Source: an uncultured Bacteroidales bacterium
GTDB taxonomy: Bacteria; Bacteroidota; Bacteroidia; Bacteroidales; G3-4614
Assembly: GCA_949297125.1 (NCBI GenBank)
Contig: CASFRS010000018.1
Span: 1 to 64,000 of the forward strand
Direction of reading: 5' to 3'
DNA length: 64,000 nucleotides
The notes below the pieces were generated by a model. That model was not told where the DNA came from. It worked only from the letters and a program-made list of their open reading frames with translations, and searched no databases. The first letter of the stretch is position 1; each line of letters begins with the position of its first letter. Made by a program: the position numbers and the translations under genes. Below, piece after piece: positions 43,485-51,035 of the stretch.

Positions 43485-44558
43485 TTACTTCGAGGTCAGG
43501 ATATAATCCACAATCCATTTTCCTACGTCGGATGTCCTGTAAGCCTTTCCGCCCTGGGCAATATCTTCCGTTACTATGCCGGCATCGATAGAGGCGCTGA
43601 CAGCCTTGCGGATAAGCGCACCCTCTTCTGTTAGTTTGAATGCATATTCAAACATAAGTGCAGCAGAGAGGATGGTTGCAAGGGGGTTTGCTATGTCTTT
43701 GCCTGCGGCCTGCGGATAAGAACCGTGAATCGGTTCAAAGACAGAGGTGTGCAATCCTACCGATGCCGAAGGGAGCATGCCGAGAGACCCTGTTATTACG
43801 GAAGCCTCGTCGGTAAGTATGTCGCCGAACATGTTCTCCGTAACGATAACGTCGAAACGCGACGGCCACTGGACAAGCTGCATGGCGGCATTGTCTACGA
43901 ACATGTATTCAGTTTCAACTTCGGGAAACTCCCTGGCTATATTCTGTGCTACTTCCCTCCACATCCGGGACGTACACAATACGTTGGCCTTATCCACTAC
44001 CGTTACCTTCTTGCGGCGTTGCATCGCGTATCCGTATGCAAGGCGAACTATGCGTTCAATTTCTTCGCGGCTGTAAACGCAGGTGTCGTACGCAACATTG
44101 CCGTCTTCGCTGCGGCCTTGCGGGCGTCCGAAATATATACCGCCGGTAAGTTCGCGGATGCACATCAAATCGGTCCCCTCAACTACATCCTGACGGAGCG
44201 GCGACTTGTGTATTAGCTGGCGGAATGTTGAAACCGGACGTATATTGGCATATAACCCGAGTTTCTTGCGCATTCCCAAAAGCCCTTGTTCAGGGCGTAC
44301 TTTGGCCTTCGGGTTGTTGTCGTATTTGGGGTCGCCTATTGCCCCGAACAGGACGGCATCCGATTCCATGCAAATTTCATGTGTCTCGTCGGGATACGGG
44401 TTCCCTGTCGCATCAATCGCACATGCGCCGACAAGAGCCCTTTTATATGTCAGTTCATGATTGAATTTTTTGCATACGGCTTTAGTTACATCCAATGCAA
44501 CTTCAACAATCTCGGGCCCTATTCCGTCGCCCGGGAGAACGGCAATATTCAATTTCAT
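43485..44558 (-). CDS. leuB: 3-isopropylmalate dehydrogenase
   Basis: 357 residues. [10 protein letters not shown] at the N-terminus, [17 protein letters not shown] and DILTDEAS with the catalytic Lys and Asp residues, and [13 protein letters not shown] are the family marks. It converts 3-isopropylmalate to 2-oxoisocaproate with NAD+. Last gene of the leucine operon, 35 bases after leuA2 and before a terminator. Confidence 0.97.
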
Positions 44559-44593: not shown

Positions 44594-46117
44594 CTATAAA
44601 TCCTCTATCTGGTTCAGCATCTTCATCGTCGCCTGTATGGCCGCATATGTCTGGTCCACGTCGAGCCCCCTTGTCTTAAAGGTATGCCCGTTGTAATTCC
44701 ATGTTATCACGGTCTGCACAAGGGCGTCGGTCCTTCCGCCGGGAGGAATGGTTACGGTATAGTCGAGCAGGGAAGGGAAGGGGCGTTGCAGCATAACCTT
44801 GTATATGCGGCGTACGGCGCGGACGAACGCATCGTACTGTCCGTCTCCTGTTGCCCCCTGCTCGTAGACTTCGCCGTTGACTTCGAGTTTTATTATCGCT
44901 CCGGGTCGGAGACCTTTCGCTATTGCCAGCGAGAAGTTCTGAAGCTTGATTTTATGGTGTTCTGTATCGTGCTTCAGGACATCAGAAATTATATACGGCA
45001 GGTCTTCCTGTGTAACAATCTCCTTTTTGTCGCCGAGGGCTATAATCCGGTCGGTAACCTTGCGCATGGAAACGTCATCGAGTTCGATGCCGAGGGCTTC
45101 GAGATTCTTCCTGATATTGGCCTTGCCCGAGGTCTTTCCGAGAGCATATTCGCGCGTGCGGCCGAAGCGTTCCGGCAGCAGGTCGTTGTAATAGAGATTG
45201 GCCTTGCTGTCGCCGTCGGCATGAATGCCTGCGCATTGGGTGAAGACATGCTCGCCTATGACAGGCTTGTTGGTGGGAATCCGTATTCCCGAATATGATT
45301 CTACCATACGGCTCACCTGGTTTATCTTCTCCTCTTTTATATCGGTTTGAATATGCAGGTGGTCATGCAGAACCGCAACTACACTCGACAGCGTTGCGTT
45401 TCCGGCACGTTCGCCGAGTCCGTTTACCGTGCAGTGTACGCCATGGATGCCGGCCAGTGTCGCCGCATAGGTATTCGCAACGGCCAGGTCGTAGTCGTTG
45501 TGCGCATGAAAATCGAAATGCAGGGACGGGTAACGCTTTACAATTTCCTTGCAATACTCGAAGGTGTTGTAAGGATTAAGTATTCCCAACGTGTCGGGTA
45601 GCATAAAACGGTTTATCTTCTCTTCCGAAAGGGCATCGAGGAATGCGTAGACGTAATCCCTCGAGTCTTTCATCCCGTTGGACCAGTCCTCAAGATAGAC
45701 GTTTATTTCCAGCCCTGCGGCACGCGCCAGCGCTATTTCGCTTTTGATATCCCTTATGTGCTCTTCGGGAGTTTTGTGCAACTGCTCCCTGCAATGCAGC
45801 AGGGAACCTTTGCACAGCATATTCACCACCTTGCCGCCGGTATCGGTAATCCATTTTACCGATACGCCGTTGTCGATGAATCCCAATATTTCTATTTTCG
45901 ATATCTCCCCGCGGCGGGCGGCCCATTGGCATACTTCTTTTACCGCTTCTCTTTCGCCTTCCGAAACTCTTGCCGAAGCTATCTCTATACGGTTTACTTT
46001 CAGAACATCCAACAGCATGCGGGCAATACTCAACTTCTCCTGCGCAGAGAATGATACGCCCGATGTCTGTTCCCCGTCCCGCAGGGTTGTGTCCATTATT
46101 TCAACCTTCCTTTCCAT
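44594..46117 (-). CDS. Second 2-isopropylmalate synthase-family protein (LeuA2 / citramalate synthase-like)
   Basis: 507 residues from ATG 46117; the upstream TTG at 46144 overlaps leuD. The TIM-barrel domain has [32 protein letters not shown] and GLGERAGNATL, and a C-terminal LeuA dimer/allosteric domain is present (about 385-507). It condenses acetyl-CoA with a 2-oxo acid. Having a clear leuA in the same operon, this paralogue may make citramalate from pyruvate (isoleucine route) or an isopropylmalate; sequence alone does not settle it. It lies between leuD and leuB, as in other Bacteroidales. Confidence 0.82.
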   Translation of the reverse strand: MERKVEIMDTTLRDGEQTSGVSFSAQEKLSIARMLLDVLKVNRIEIASARVSEGEREAVKEVCQWAARRGEISKIEILGFIDNGVSVKWITDTGGKVVNMLCKGSLLHCREQLHKTPEEHIRDIKSEIALARAAGLEINVYLEDWSNGMKDSRDYVYAFLDALSEEKINRFMLPDTLGILNPYNTFEYCKEIVKRYPSLHFDFHAHNDYDLAVANTYAATLAGIHGVHCTVNGLGERAGNATLSSVVAVLHDHLHIQTDIKEEKINQVSRMVESYSGIRIPTNKPVIGEHVFTQCAGIHADGDSKANLYYNDLLPERFGRTREYALGKTSGKANIRKNLEALGIELDDVSMRKVTDRIIALGDKKEIVTQEDLPYIISDVLKHDTEHHKIKLQNFSLAIAKGLRPGAIIKLEVNGEVYEQGATGDGQYDAFVRAVRRIYKVMLQRPFPSLLDYTVTIPPGGRTDALVQTVITWNYNGHTFKTRGLDVDQTYAAIQATMKMLNQIEDL

Positions 46118-46122
46118 ACCTT

Positions 46123-46713
46123 TTATCTGTTCCTCTTTTCCCAATCTTCTATATCGCTTTTGCGGCTCAGCAGGTAGTCAATGTCGTCATACCCGTTGAG
46201 CAGACAGTTCTTCTTGTACGGATTTATGTCGAACGTCTCTTTCTTGCCGGTAGCATTGTTGGTTATAGTCTGTTCGGGGAGGTCAATGGTAACCGTATTG
46301 GCCGGGTTTTCCTCTATCGACCGGAACAGCTCGCCGAGGAACTCTTCCGATACGACAACCGGAAGTACGCAGTTGTTGAGGGCGTTGTTTTTGAAGATGT
46401 CGGCAAAGAAACTCGATACAACGGCACGGAAACCGTAACCTGCAACCGCCCATGCGGCATGTTCGCGGCTTGAACCGCTACCGAAGTTTTTACCTGCAAC
46501 AAGTACAGTACCGGTATATTTGGGATTGTTCAGGACGAAACTCTCTATCTTGTTCCCGTTCTTGTCATATCTCCAGTCCCTGAAAAGGTTGTCTCCAAAC
46601 CCTTCTCTTGTCGTAGCTTTCAAAAACCTGGCCGGAATTATCTGGTCTGTATCTACATTCTCTATTGGAAGAGGGATGCATGTAGATGTCAGTTTTTCAA
46701 ATTTTTCTCTCAT
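46123..46713 (-). CDS. leuD: 3-isopropylmalate dehydratase small subunit
   Basis: 196 residues. [14 protein letters not shown] and [16 protein letters not shown] are the swivel-domain signatures. With LeuC it isomerises 2- to 3-isopropylmalate. 14 bases after leuC. Confidence 0.97.
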
Positions 46714-46727
46714 GGCATTTCTTTTTA

Positions 46728-48131
46728 TTATTTCATAAAATCGCGGGGGTCGGTAACTTTCCCTGTTATTGCTGCCGCAGCTGCTACCAGCGGACTTGCA
46801 AGCAGCGTTCTGGAGCCGGGACCCTGACGCCCCTCAAAGTTGCGGTTCGATGTGGATACTGCATATTTCCCGGCCGGGACCTTGTCGTCGTTCATGGCAA
46901 GGCAGGCCGAACATCCGGGCTGCCTCAACTCGAAACCTGCTTCGGCAAGAATCTTGTCGAGCCCTTCTGCCCGTATGGCCTTTTCCACATTCCATGAACC
47001 GGGTACAAGCCATGCCGTTACCGATTGAGCTTTCTTGTGTCCCTTTACAAAGTTGGCGAAAGCCCGGAAGTCTTCTATCCTGCCATTGGTGCAGCTTCCG
47101 AGGAATACGTAGTCGACAGGCTTGCCTATCAGCGACTCGCCCGGCTTGAATCCCATATATTCCAGCGATTTTCCGAACGATATTTTCCCCGCCTCGTCAA
47201 TCTCGTCGAGTGTCGGAATCTTTTCCGTTATGCCTATACCCATGCCCGGGTTAGTTCCGTATGTAATGCGCGGCATAATGTCGGCGGCGTCGAATACCAC
47301 TTCCTTATCGAATACCGCCCCTTCGTCGGTGGGAAGTTTGCGCCATTCGCTTACGGCTTTTTCCCATGCCTCGCCCTTAGGTGCGAATTCGCGTCCCTTG
47401 AGATATTCAAACGTTGTCTCGTCTGGAGCAATCATCCCACCGCGTGCACCCATTTCTATACTCAGGTTGCAGACGGTCATACGCCCTTCCATGCTGAGCG
47501 AGCGGATTGCACTGCCGGCGAACTCAACAAAGTATCCGGTAGCTCCGCCTGTCGTCATTTTTGCAATTACATACAATGCTATATCTTTTGCGGTAACTCC
47601 TTTTGCAAGTTCGCCCTCAATGCTTATGCGCATCTTTTTGGGCTTGGGCTGGAGTATGCACTGCGAAGCAAGTACCATTTCCACCTCGCTGGTACCGATA
47701 CCGAAAGCAACGGCACCCATTGCGCCGTGTGTGGAAGTGTGGCTGTCGCCGCATACTATCGTCATACCGGGCTGCGTATATCCGTTTTCCGGACCTATTA
47801 CATGTATTATGCCGTTTTTGGGGTTAAGCAGGCCGTATACGGTAAGGCCGAATTCTTCGGCATTTTTCATGAGCGTATCTACCTGATTCCTCGATACGGG
47901 GTCGGATATGGGCTTGTCCTGGTTTATCGTGGGGATATTATGATCGGGCGAGCAGGTGTTCTGTGCCGGCCTGAAGACCTTCAGCCCCCGTTCTCTCAAC
48001 CCGTTAAAAGCCTGCGGGCTCGTTACTTCATGCAGGTAATGCCTGTCGATATAGAGTTGTGAAGGCCCGCCTTCCACTATGGAAACTACATGGGCGTCCC
48101 ATATCTTATCGAACAATGTTTTCTTTTCCAT
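46728..48131 (-). CDS. leuC: 3-isopropylmalate dehydratase large subunit
   Basis: 467 residues from ATG 48131. [24 protein letters not shown] and GCSACLAMN hold the Cys ligands of the [4Fe-4S] cluster; the aconitase fold is complete. Partner of LeuD. 24 bases after leuA. Confidence 0.97.
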
Positions 48132-48155
48132 ATTCAATTATCGTATTGACAAATA

Positions 48156-49649
48156 TTATATTACAAATTTGTTAATTGCATCTACAAACGCATCGGCCGA
48201 AGCTGCCACAATGTCGGTATTGGCCCCGAAACCGTAGTAATTCTCCCCGTTGTACGATACGGTCATGTGAACTTTCCCTGTATCGTCGCTCCCTTTTGTT
48301 ATTGCCTGTATCAGGAATTCTTCAAGGGTCATCTTGCGGCGTATAATCTGCTTGATGGCGTTTATGGCGGCATCGACAGGCCCGTTGCCCGATGCTGCGG
48401 CCTCGAACTTTTCGCCTGCTATATTGATTCCGACGCTTGCCACTGCACGGACTCCGATACCGGAGGTTACCTGCAGATAGTCGATTGAGATGCGTCCTTT
48501 TTCCCCGCGGCTCTTTCCTACCAGCATCAATATATCATCGTCGTTGAGGTCTTTCTTGCGGTCGGCCAGCGCGAGGAAGTCGTTATATGCACGGTCCAGT
48601 GCAGTCTGGTCGAGGTCTACGCCGAGTACGTGCAGCCTGTGTTTCAATGCTGCGCGCCCGCTTCTTGCCGTTAAAACTATCGAAGTTTCATCGATACCCA
48701 CATCCTTCGGGTCGATTATCTCGTAGTTCTCGCGGTTTTTCAAAACCCCGTCCTGATGTATCCCCGACGAGTGGGCGAAGGCGTTTCTTCCCACTATGGC
48801 CTTGTTCGGTTGTACCGGCATGTTCATCATGCTCGAAACCAGACGGCTTGTCGAGTATATTTTCTGAGTATTGATATTCGTGTCTATGCCCAACTTGTGG
48901 CTCTTGAATATCATGGCAACCTCCTCTAACGACGTGTTACCGGCACGTTCGCCTATTCCGTTTACCGTAACTTCTGCCTGACGGGCTCCGTTAAGGATTC
49001 CCGATATGGTGTTTGCCGTAGCCATACCCAGGTCGTTGTGGCAGTGTGTGGCTATCGTAACCTTGTCTATGCCCTTTACGTTTTCCTTGAGGTAGAGTAT
49101 CTTTTTCCCGAATTCGTCCGGCAGGCAATAGCCTGTCGTATCGGGTATGTTTACTACCGTTGCACCGGCTTTTACCACTGCTTCTACCACGCGGGCAAGA
49201 TATTCGTTGTCGGTACGTCCTGCATCTTCTGCATAGAACTGAACGTCTTCAACATACTTCTTGGCGTATTTTACGCATGCTATTGCCCTTTCTATAATCT
49301 CTTCGCGTGTTGAATTGAACTTGTATCTGATATGGTAATCCGATGTGCCTATACCGGTGTGTATCCGTTTGTGCTTGGCATATTTCAATGCTTCTGCGGC
49401 AGCATCGATGTCTTTTTCAACGGCACGCGACAACGCACATATTGTAGGCCATGTTACAGCTTTTGAGATTTCAACTACCGAATTGAAGTCTCCCGGGCTT
49501 GAAATGGGAAATCCGGCTTCGATAATGTCGACTCCCAATGCTTCCAGAGCCTTGGCTACCTGTATCTTCTCTACGGTGTTCAACTGACACCCGGGGACCT
49601 GTTCCCCGTCTCTCAATGTAGTGTCGAAAATAAATAATCTGTCTGACAT
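48156..49649 (-). CDS. leuA: 2-isopropylmalate synthase
   Basis: 497 residues. [17 protein letters not shown] at the N-terminus, [30 protein letters not shown] and [12 protein letters not shown] define LeuA; the C-terminal regulatory domain (about 380-497) confers leucine feedback. It condenses acetyl-CoA with 2-oxoisovalerate, the first leucine-specific step. First enzyme gene of the operon, downstream of the leader peptide and attenuator. Confidence 0.97.
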
Positions 49650-49687: not shown

Positions 49688-49723
49688 AAAAAAAGACCTT
49701 CCGCACGCGGGGTGAGAAAGGTC
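49688..49723 (-). terminator. Leucine operon attenuator terminator
   Basis: Minus-strand hairpin GACCTTTC ... GGAAGGTC (8 pairs with one G-T) with a 13-base loop, followed by seven T residues, lies between the leader peptide and leuA (stop to hairpin 29 bases, hairpin to leuA 38 bases). A strong intrinsic terminator before the structural genes is the mark of attenuation. Confidence 0.8.
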
Positions 49724-49751
49724 CTTAATATTCAAAGCATACCCATACGTC

Positions 49752-49820
49752 TCACTCCCTATTGATGCGCATCAATAGAATAATGGTAAGTCGTAGCGAT
49801 ATTGCAGATATCATTCTCAT
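49752..49820 (-). CDS. leuL: Leucine operon leader peptide
   Basis: A 22-residue peptide, MRMISAISLRLTIILLMRINRE, is encoded between the operon promoter and the attenuator. It holds four Leu and five Ile codons, with the run LTIILLMRI in the second half. Ribosomes stalled there for lack of charged tRNA would free downstream RNA from the terminator. The leader's 3' part includes the perfect palindrome CTATTGATGCGCATCAATAG (49759-49778), likely the pause or anti-terminator stem. The start ATG follows an A-rich stretch. Function inferred from layout. Confidence 0.7.
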   Translation of the reverse strand: MRMISAISLRLTIILLMRINRE

Positions 49821-49860
49821 TTCCTTTTTTATGCTTTGTGCGACTGTTTTTTTCGCAATG

Positions 49861-49891
49861 CAAAAGTATGTATTTTGAACTGAACAACAAA
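49861..49891 (-). promoter_or_regulatory. Promoter of the leucine operon
   Basis: Minus-strand TTTG (49891-49888) and TACTTTTG (49868-49861) with exactly 19 bases between. Transcription would start about 35 bases before the leader peptide ATG. Confidence 0.65.
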
Positions 49892-50174: not shown

Positions 50175-51035
50175 TTAACCGAGATAGGTTTTCAGCTGTT
50201 TGCTCCTTGAGTTTTGCCTTAACCTGCGTATCGCCTTTTCCTTTATCTGGCGGACACGTTCACGTGTGAGGCCGAATTTGTCGCCGATTTCTTCGAGGGT
50301 CATCTCCTGACACCCTATGCCGAAGAACATTTTCACTATCTCGCTCTCACGGGGTGTGAGAGTTGCCAATGCCCTGTCAATCTCTTTCGATAAGGATTCC
50401 TTTATCAGCGGGCGGTCGGCATTGGGTGAGTCGTCGTTTACCAGAACATCGAGCAAACTGTTGTCTTCTCCTTCCACAAAGGGGGCATCCACGGAGATAT
50501 GACGTCCGGAAACCTTCATCGTATCGGTTATCTTGTCTACGGGTATATCCAACTCGTCGGCAAGTTCTTCAACCGAAGGGCGGCGTTCATTCTCCTGTTC
50601 AAAACGGGAAAACGCTTTGCTGATTTTGTTCAGCGACCCAACCTGATTTAACGGGAGACGCACTATACGCGACTGCTCTGCAAGAGCCTGCAGTATAGAC
50701 TGGCGAATCCACCATACGGCATAGGATATAAACTTGAAACCTCTTGTTTCATCAAACTTCTCTGCCGCTTTAATAAGTCCAAGATTACCTTCGTTGATAA
50801 GGTCGGGGAGCGATAGACCTTGATTCTGATACTGTTTTGCAACCGAGACAACGAATCTCAGATTTGCCCTTGTTAATTTGTCTAATGCTGCTCTGTCCCC
50901 ATTCCTGATGCGACCTGCAAGTTCGACTTCTTCTTCTACCGTAATCAACCCCTCACGTCCAATCTCTTGCAGATACTTGTCCAACGAAGCACTCTCTCTG
51001 TTTGTGATAGACTTTGTAATCTTTAACTGTCTCAT
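50175..51035 (-). CDS. rpoD: Primary RNA polymerase sigma factor
   Basis: 286 residues, the compact primary sigma of Bacteroidota without a long region 1.1. Region 1.2 ([16 protein letters not shown]), region 2 ([51 protein letters not shown]), region 3 and region 4 ([35 protein letters not shown]) are all present. It recognises the TTTG/TAnnTTTG promoters seen across this window. Single gene with its own terminator. Confidence 0.96.

Follow-up and report, generated by a model that had tools for sequence, protein, structure and literature searches.

The region ahead of leuA in this Bacteroidales genome raises a double question: is the short open reading frame (ORF) found there the leader peptide of an attenuator and, if so, which amino acids does it read? 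Judging from the parts of the locus, their alternative pairings, the placement and choice of codons and the association with cimA, as brought out by sequence and by comparison, the locus is very probably a ribosome-mediated transcription attenuator of the leuACD-cimA-leuB operon, which would read the supply of both leucyl- and isoleucyl-tRNA. In what follows, the window stands for the whole stretch of 64,000 nucleotides that was analysed. The elements of the leader region, from upstream to downstream, are the following:

50175-51035, sigma-factor gene, the upstream neighbour
50155-50128, terminator-like hairpin of the sigma-factor gene
49861-49891, minus strand, promoter of the Bacteroidota type: TTTG at 49891-49888, a 19-nt spacer and TACTTTTG at 49868-49861
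49752-49820, minus strand, leader ORF of 22 codons, MRMISAISLRLTIILLMRINRE, with its UGA stop codon at 49754-49752
49786-49797, minus strand, region 1 (protector): CUUAC (with CUACG), the partner of GUGAG in region 2
49773-49796, minus strand, control codons 9-16: CUA CGA CUU ACC AUU AUU CUA UUG, of which four are Leu and two Ile
49759-49778, minus strand, perfect 20-nt palindrome CTATTGATGCGCATCAATAG: hairpin core of the 1:2 pairing, its 5' arm covering control codons 15-16
49750-49759, minus strand, region 2, GGGAGUGAGA: spans the leader stop codon and has region 1 or region 3 as partner
49709-49717, minus strand, region 3, UCUCACCCC: pairs with region 2 in the antiterminator and overlaps the 5' strand of the terminator stem
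49688-49726, minus strand, intrinsic terminator (3:4): stem at 49726-49692 of 11 bp plus 3 bp, and U7 at 49694-49688

Transcription is expected to start near 49855, and the terminator sits between the leader ORF, which holds five Ile, four Leu and no Val codons, and the leuA start at 49649. The initial annotation had described a promoter, a 22-residue leader, a 20-bp palindrome and a terminator before leuA, and had read them as a ribosome-mediated attenuator. All four parts were recovered on the minus strand, where the coordinates given for them proved correct, and the combined leader and terminator score was matched in none of 400 dinucleotide-preserving shuffles of the leuA upstream region of this genome. 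The attenuator reading was strengthened in turn by two pairings that were absent from that annotation, the antiterminator (2:3) and the protector (1:2). As a whole, the sequence-level marks of an attenuator, i.e. leader codons, terminator, both alternative pairings and the placement of the control codons, are all found here. The palindrome hairpin may possibly act as a pause hairpin.

A simple scan for sigma-70 and terminator consensus sequences listed neither the leader promoter nor the 3:4 terminator, owing to the Bacteroidota type of the former and the interrupted stem of the latter. No Rfam family reached its gathering cut-off anywhere in the window, and a permissive Rfam scan of the leader region returned only a chance snoRNA match at E 3.3. 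Concerning the rest of the genome, a pattern search found no second copy of the switch, and no similar leader was seen by eye upstream of the ilvD-ilvB-ilvN operon: positions 6690-7200 of L131, ahead of ilvD, show no Ile/Leu/Val leader. Directly before ilvD, L131 carries AAGAAGG and CCTTCTT, tens of nucleotides apart, which could pair.

Folding of the 221-nt transcript gave a structure more stable than those of shuffled sequences (z -2.46). Within it, region 2 has two alternative partners, the control codons that precede it (1:2) and the 5' strand of the terminator stem (2:3); the 2:3 duplex reaches -18.9 kcal/mol in the window. Ribosome positions were then modelled with a footprint assumed to reach 12 nt beyond the A-site codon. 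In the folds obtained with no ribosome, region 2 binds CUUAC in the control codons and the terminator forms. When the ribosome is placed at any of codons 9-16 and region 4 is absent, the best fold is the 2:3 pairing, at -16.8 to -21.1 kcal/mol, and a ribosome at codon 19 or at the stop codon masks region 2, so that the terminator alone remains. Once region 4 is present, the terminator prevails in every minimum-energy fold of the full-length transcript, including those in which region 2 is free; therefore antitermination would have to be kinetic.

On these folds, translation of the leader probably decides transcription of the operon, and the stalling, kinetic trapping and regulatory response that we infer would run as follows. 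When leucine and isoleucine are plentiful, the leader ribosome would reach UGA and cover region 2, so that region 3 would be free to pair with region 4 and RNA polymerase would halt before leuA. Should charged tRNA-Leu or tRNA-Ile become scarce, the ribosome would stall on codons 9-16 and open the 1:2 hairpin; region 2, thus exposed, would capture region 3 as it emerges, no terminator would form and the operon would be transcribed. If the leader were left untranslated, region 1 would sequester region 2 and the terminator would form.

The genes that would be under such control bear directly on the second half of the question. They lie on the minus strand in the following order:

48156-49649, minus strand, leuA, 2-isopropylmalate synthase (NCBIfam TIGR00973, 661.8 bits, above cut-off)
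46728-48137, minus strand, leuC, large subunit of isopropylmalate dehydratase (TIGR00170, above cut-off)
46123-46713, minus strand, leuD, small subunit of isopropylmalate dehydratase (TIGR00171, above cut-off)
44594-46144, minus strand, cimA-type gene, the second synthase of the operon (leuA2 in the initial annotation)
43485-44558, minus strand, leuB, isopropylmalate dehydrogenase (TIGR00169, above cut-off)

The product of the cimA-type gene is probably a citramalate synthase (CimA), going by its similarities. Its best NCBIfam model is NF042433 (CimA, Leptospira), with 654 bits, below the cut-off of 950, and it scores 177 against a cut-off of 450 for TIGR00977. The nearest solved chain is 3ble, the citramalate synthase of Leptospira (E 1.4e-117), the next solved homologue being at 3.6e-56. 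Known pathways make it likely that CimA forms an isoleucine route together with LeuC, LeuD and LeuB. As for threonine deaminase (IlvA), none was found among the four PALP-family proteins of this genome (99.8% complete), which are a cysteine synthase, two TrpB types and a threonine synthase. With a probable CimA in the operon and no threonine deaminase among those four proteins, the operon probably supplies isoleucine too. The Ile codons of the leader would then be kept because the 2-oxobutyrate needed for isoleucine also comes from this operon, by way of CimA, LeuC, LeuD and LeuB.

Relatives were gathered by their LeuA, and leader and terminator were called at set thresholds. An Ile/Leu-rich ORF was found at the same place upstream of leuA in many Bacteroidales, and leader, terminator and promoter recur across the order, so that a lack of leader conservation, which the initial annotation had named as a ground for refuting its reading, was not borne out. 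One of the relatives with such a leader is L087, from the culturable species Bacteroides gallinarum. Leader and terminator occur together in 111 of the 247 Bacteroidales leuA upstream regions, whereas shuffling gave the combination in 1 case out of 741; many other upstream regions of the order have no leader. TAnnTTTG preceded by (T)TTG at 18-22 nt was present in 96 of the 126 distinct leaders vs. 5 of 1260 shuffled sequences, and the terminator form CCTTTCTCAC...GAAAGG also recurs among the relatives. In 124 of the 126 leaders, the core of region 2 was located between -20 and +16 nt relative to the stop codon, in a search confined to the vicinity of that codon.

Both pairings are better between cognate partners than between non-cognate or shuffled ones. 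For 2:3, the mean energies over the 126 leaders are -14.7 kcal/mol for cognate, -11.9 for non-cognate and -10.0 for shuffled partners (Wilcoxon p 1.3e-13 vs. non-cognate and 2e-18 vs. shuffled), and for 1:2, where the signal is weaker, they are -11.0, -9.4 and -8.9 kcal/mol (p 4e-6 and 7e-11, respectively), all of these p-values overstating the evidence because the species are not independent. In the cimA-less family f9 (L247, L251 and L254), a joint change has given the terminator arm and region 2 sequences of the CCACCT / AGGTGG type, which is an independent covariation of the same switch. The sequence of the palindrome varies among relatives and only a hairpin at the same place is kept, the palindrome being this lineage's own version of a sequence-variable hairpin.

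Several variants were met with along the way. In five upstream regions (L214, L215, L220, L224 and L153), the promoter is followed within some 10-80 nt by a terminator of the CCTTTCT...AGAAAGG type, with no leader ORF seen between them, which looks like a reduced attenuator consisting of the terminator only. Prevotella-type leaders (L075-L112) have the core IIIRL or IIIIRL (an Ile run, Arg and Leu) vs. IIILL elsewhere, and continue across region 2 to end in similar tails that contain GS. Of the 20 leuA upstream regions examined from other orders of the phylum, most follow other genes or have no leader. The sole possible exception, L268, from another order of the same class, has a short ORF MIIKYTISLNRLPLTKTV and a terminator GTGAGAAGGG...CCCTTTCTC upstream of leuA, and may be a distant or independent attenuator.

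Which amino acids the leaders read can be approached from their composition. Since enrichment in Ile, Leu and Val served to call the leaders, their pooled excess is in part a product of the method; the difference between Ile and Leu on the one hand and Val on the other is not, nor is the choice of codons. Ile, Leu and Val make up 19.4, 20.6 and 3.6% of the leader residues, respectively, vs. 8.8, 6.9 and 8.9% of LeuA in the same genomes. Between 12 and 47 nt upstream of region 2, Ile and Leu codons together represent 51-75% of all codons, a share that is down to 5-10% within 11 nt of region 2, as would be expected if the downstream footprint of a stalled ribosome had to leave region 2 uncovered. 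CUA accounts for 32% of the Leu codons in leaders vs. 3% in leuA genes.

Such figures have to be set against the best of the competing explanations, namely that this ribosome-mediated attenuator senses leucine only and that its Ile codons are incidental, owing for instance to AT-rich DNA or to RNA pairing. The leu leader of E. coli, rich in Leu alone, would be a precedent, and it is the rare Leu codon CUA that is enriched, whereas Ile is encoded by the common AUU. Incidental Ile codons would nevertheless have to account for an Ile enrichment about as strong as that of Leu alongside a depletion of Val, and for Ile and Leu codons sharing the same zone before region 2. If, on the other hand, the Ile codons are there because the operon makes isoleucine, then genomes devoid of cimA should have leaders with Leu only.

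Gene order, together with searches of whole genomes, showed whether cimA was present, giving 114 leaders of known state; those for which this was obscured by assembly gaps (L058, L145, L063, L027, L039, L015, L025 and others) were omitted. Before this comparison, occasional errors of the leader caller were fixed or removed by hand, i.e. a wrong overlapping frame (L084) and false leaders (L081, L118, L184, L029 and L038), and some of the cimA-less leaders were also read by hand. Ile-rich leaders were found in 100 of the 105 genomes with cimA vs. 2 of the 9 without it. In codon counts, the former leaders hold 482 Ile for 479 Leu and the latter 8 Ile for 50 Leu, so that cimA-less leaders lose Ile and keep Leu. 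The clearest pair, within one family, is that of G401, with cimA (MTITMNSIILSLSIIGLTLSK), vs. G032, without it (MNTTLLSLSLTSGLTLSK). Exceptions exist in both directions (L098, L154 and L101; L247 and L255).

Mapped on the LeuA tree, the cimA comparison comes down to three independent contrasts, of which 2.7 on average go in the predicted direction and none in the opposite one (sign test, p 0.25). A wider definition of the trait, chosen post hoc, also counts as not serving isoleucine the cases where leuA is apart from leuCD (L117 and L123) or cimA is on the other strand (L101); it gives 4.6 of five contrasts as predicted and none opposite (p 0.06). The link of Ile codons with cimA falls short of proof, because there are only three independent cimA losses: it is suggestive, consistent across the genomes compared and mechanistically sensible, and not statistically closed.

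Three further situations concern the same genes. The two Salinivirgaceae loci L117 and L123 have leuA without an adjoining leuC, and cimA elsewhere in the genome, and their leader shows a Leu run without Ile (RSLLLSLSLSLRLRRR). In L285 and L210, cimA is elsewhere, leuCD is in the operon and Ile is kept in the leader. A cimA-like frame with one in-frame TGA (G484:C53:544-2046) is a pseudogene or an assembly error.

Taken with the 3ble match and the threonine deaminase search, the tracking of cimA by the leader Ile codons supports the suggestion of the initial annotation that these codons reflect the citramalate-like gene, and sensing of leucine alone appears unlikely. Even less probable, to our mind very much so, is a scheme with no sensing ribosome, in which a fixed terminator lowers expression, or a protein or small RNA acts on the folds, while the peptide is translated but irrelevant. 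Loci such as L214, L215 and L224, where promoter and terminator stand with no leader ORF, would suit it, but it leaves the codon content, the placement of the control codons and the CUA bias unexplained, and the lack of an Rfam match at or above cut-off in the window also speaks against it. That the ORF, short and hydrophobic as it is, is no leader but the gene of a small membrane protein with a function of its own is scarcely credible, given that its sequence outside Ile and Leu is poorly conserved even within a genus, that the C termini run in differing frames through region 2, and that the synonymous CUA bias acts on codons and not on the peptide.

The ribosome-mediated attenuator reading both leucine and isoleucine may extend well beyond this genome. 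We lean, by a small measure, towards an order-wide and undescribed class of Bacteroidales attenuators, whose codons would be retuned to the content of the pathway: Ile and Leu where CimA makes LeuCDB serve both amino acids, and only Leu in genomes that have lost cimA or have leuA on its own. The way in which leader codons follow enzyme content would then be a natural experiment, and the leader by itself would predict whether an operon works for leucine alone or for both amino acids. If true, so widespread an attenuator in the Bacteroidales, which are dominant gut bacteria, would need close coupling of transcription and translation, with ribosomes trailing RNA polymerase closely enough to control termination. 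Most descriptions of leader-peptide attenuation come from Proteobacteria, Actinobacteria and some Firmicutes. Until it added its own case from Firmicutes, a survey of 2010 was aware of examples in Proteobacteria and Actinobacteria only (PMC2965389).

Among known systems, the leu operon attenuator of enterobacteria corresponds to the Rfam family Leu_leader, whose leader in E. coli is rich in Leu only. The locus described here resembles it in its rare CUA Leu codons, in its protector, antiterminator and terminator alternatives and in its position upstream of leuA. It differs from Leu_leader in having no Rfam match, in a leader that is also Ile-rich, in an operon with cimA and in a promoter of the Bacteroidota type. 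Within the phylum itself, the Bacteroid-trp RNA is, going by its name, linked to trp genes. This motif (RF01692), listed among the cis-regulatory RNAs of Bacteroidetes (PMC2864571), concerns a different operon and has no match within the window. Bacteroid-trp aside, searches of the open-licence literature yielded no account of an amino-acid attenuator with a leader peptide in Bacteroidota, an absence which is not proof.

In codon content, the nearest leader described is that of the ilv-leu attenuator of S. aureus, which precedes the whole ilv-leu operon from ilvD onwards and is combined with CodY, whereas the present one precedes leuACD-cimA-leuB only (PMC5794164). Rli60 of Listeria is likewise a ribosome-mediated attenuator of branched-chain amino acid synthesis, shown experimentally there and predicted from sequence here, with super-attenuation when the leader is untranslated; unlike the present case, it is a Firmicutes element with a 13-residue leader, located upstream of ilvD (PMC5864092). 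The LEU element of Actinobacteria shares a Leu-rich leader ORF upstream of leuA, but forms a pseudoknot whose base stem pairs the run of Leu codons with the Shine-Dalgarno box of leuA, and has no terminator switch (PMC1262725). Also, the attenuator-like leaders of ilvB and leuA in Streptomyces are reported to have shown no attenuator behaviour on mutation (PMC1262725), which is a caution against the attenuator reading proposed here. What lies outside Rfam, and was not found described for Bacteroidota, is the Bacteroidales example; the mechanism put forward for it is that of classical ribosome-mediated attenuation.
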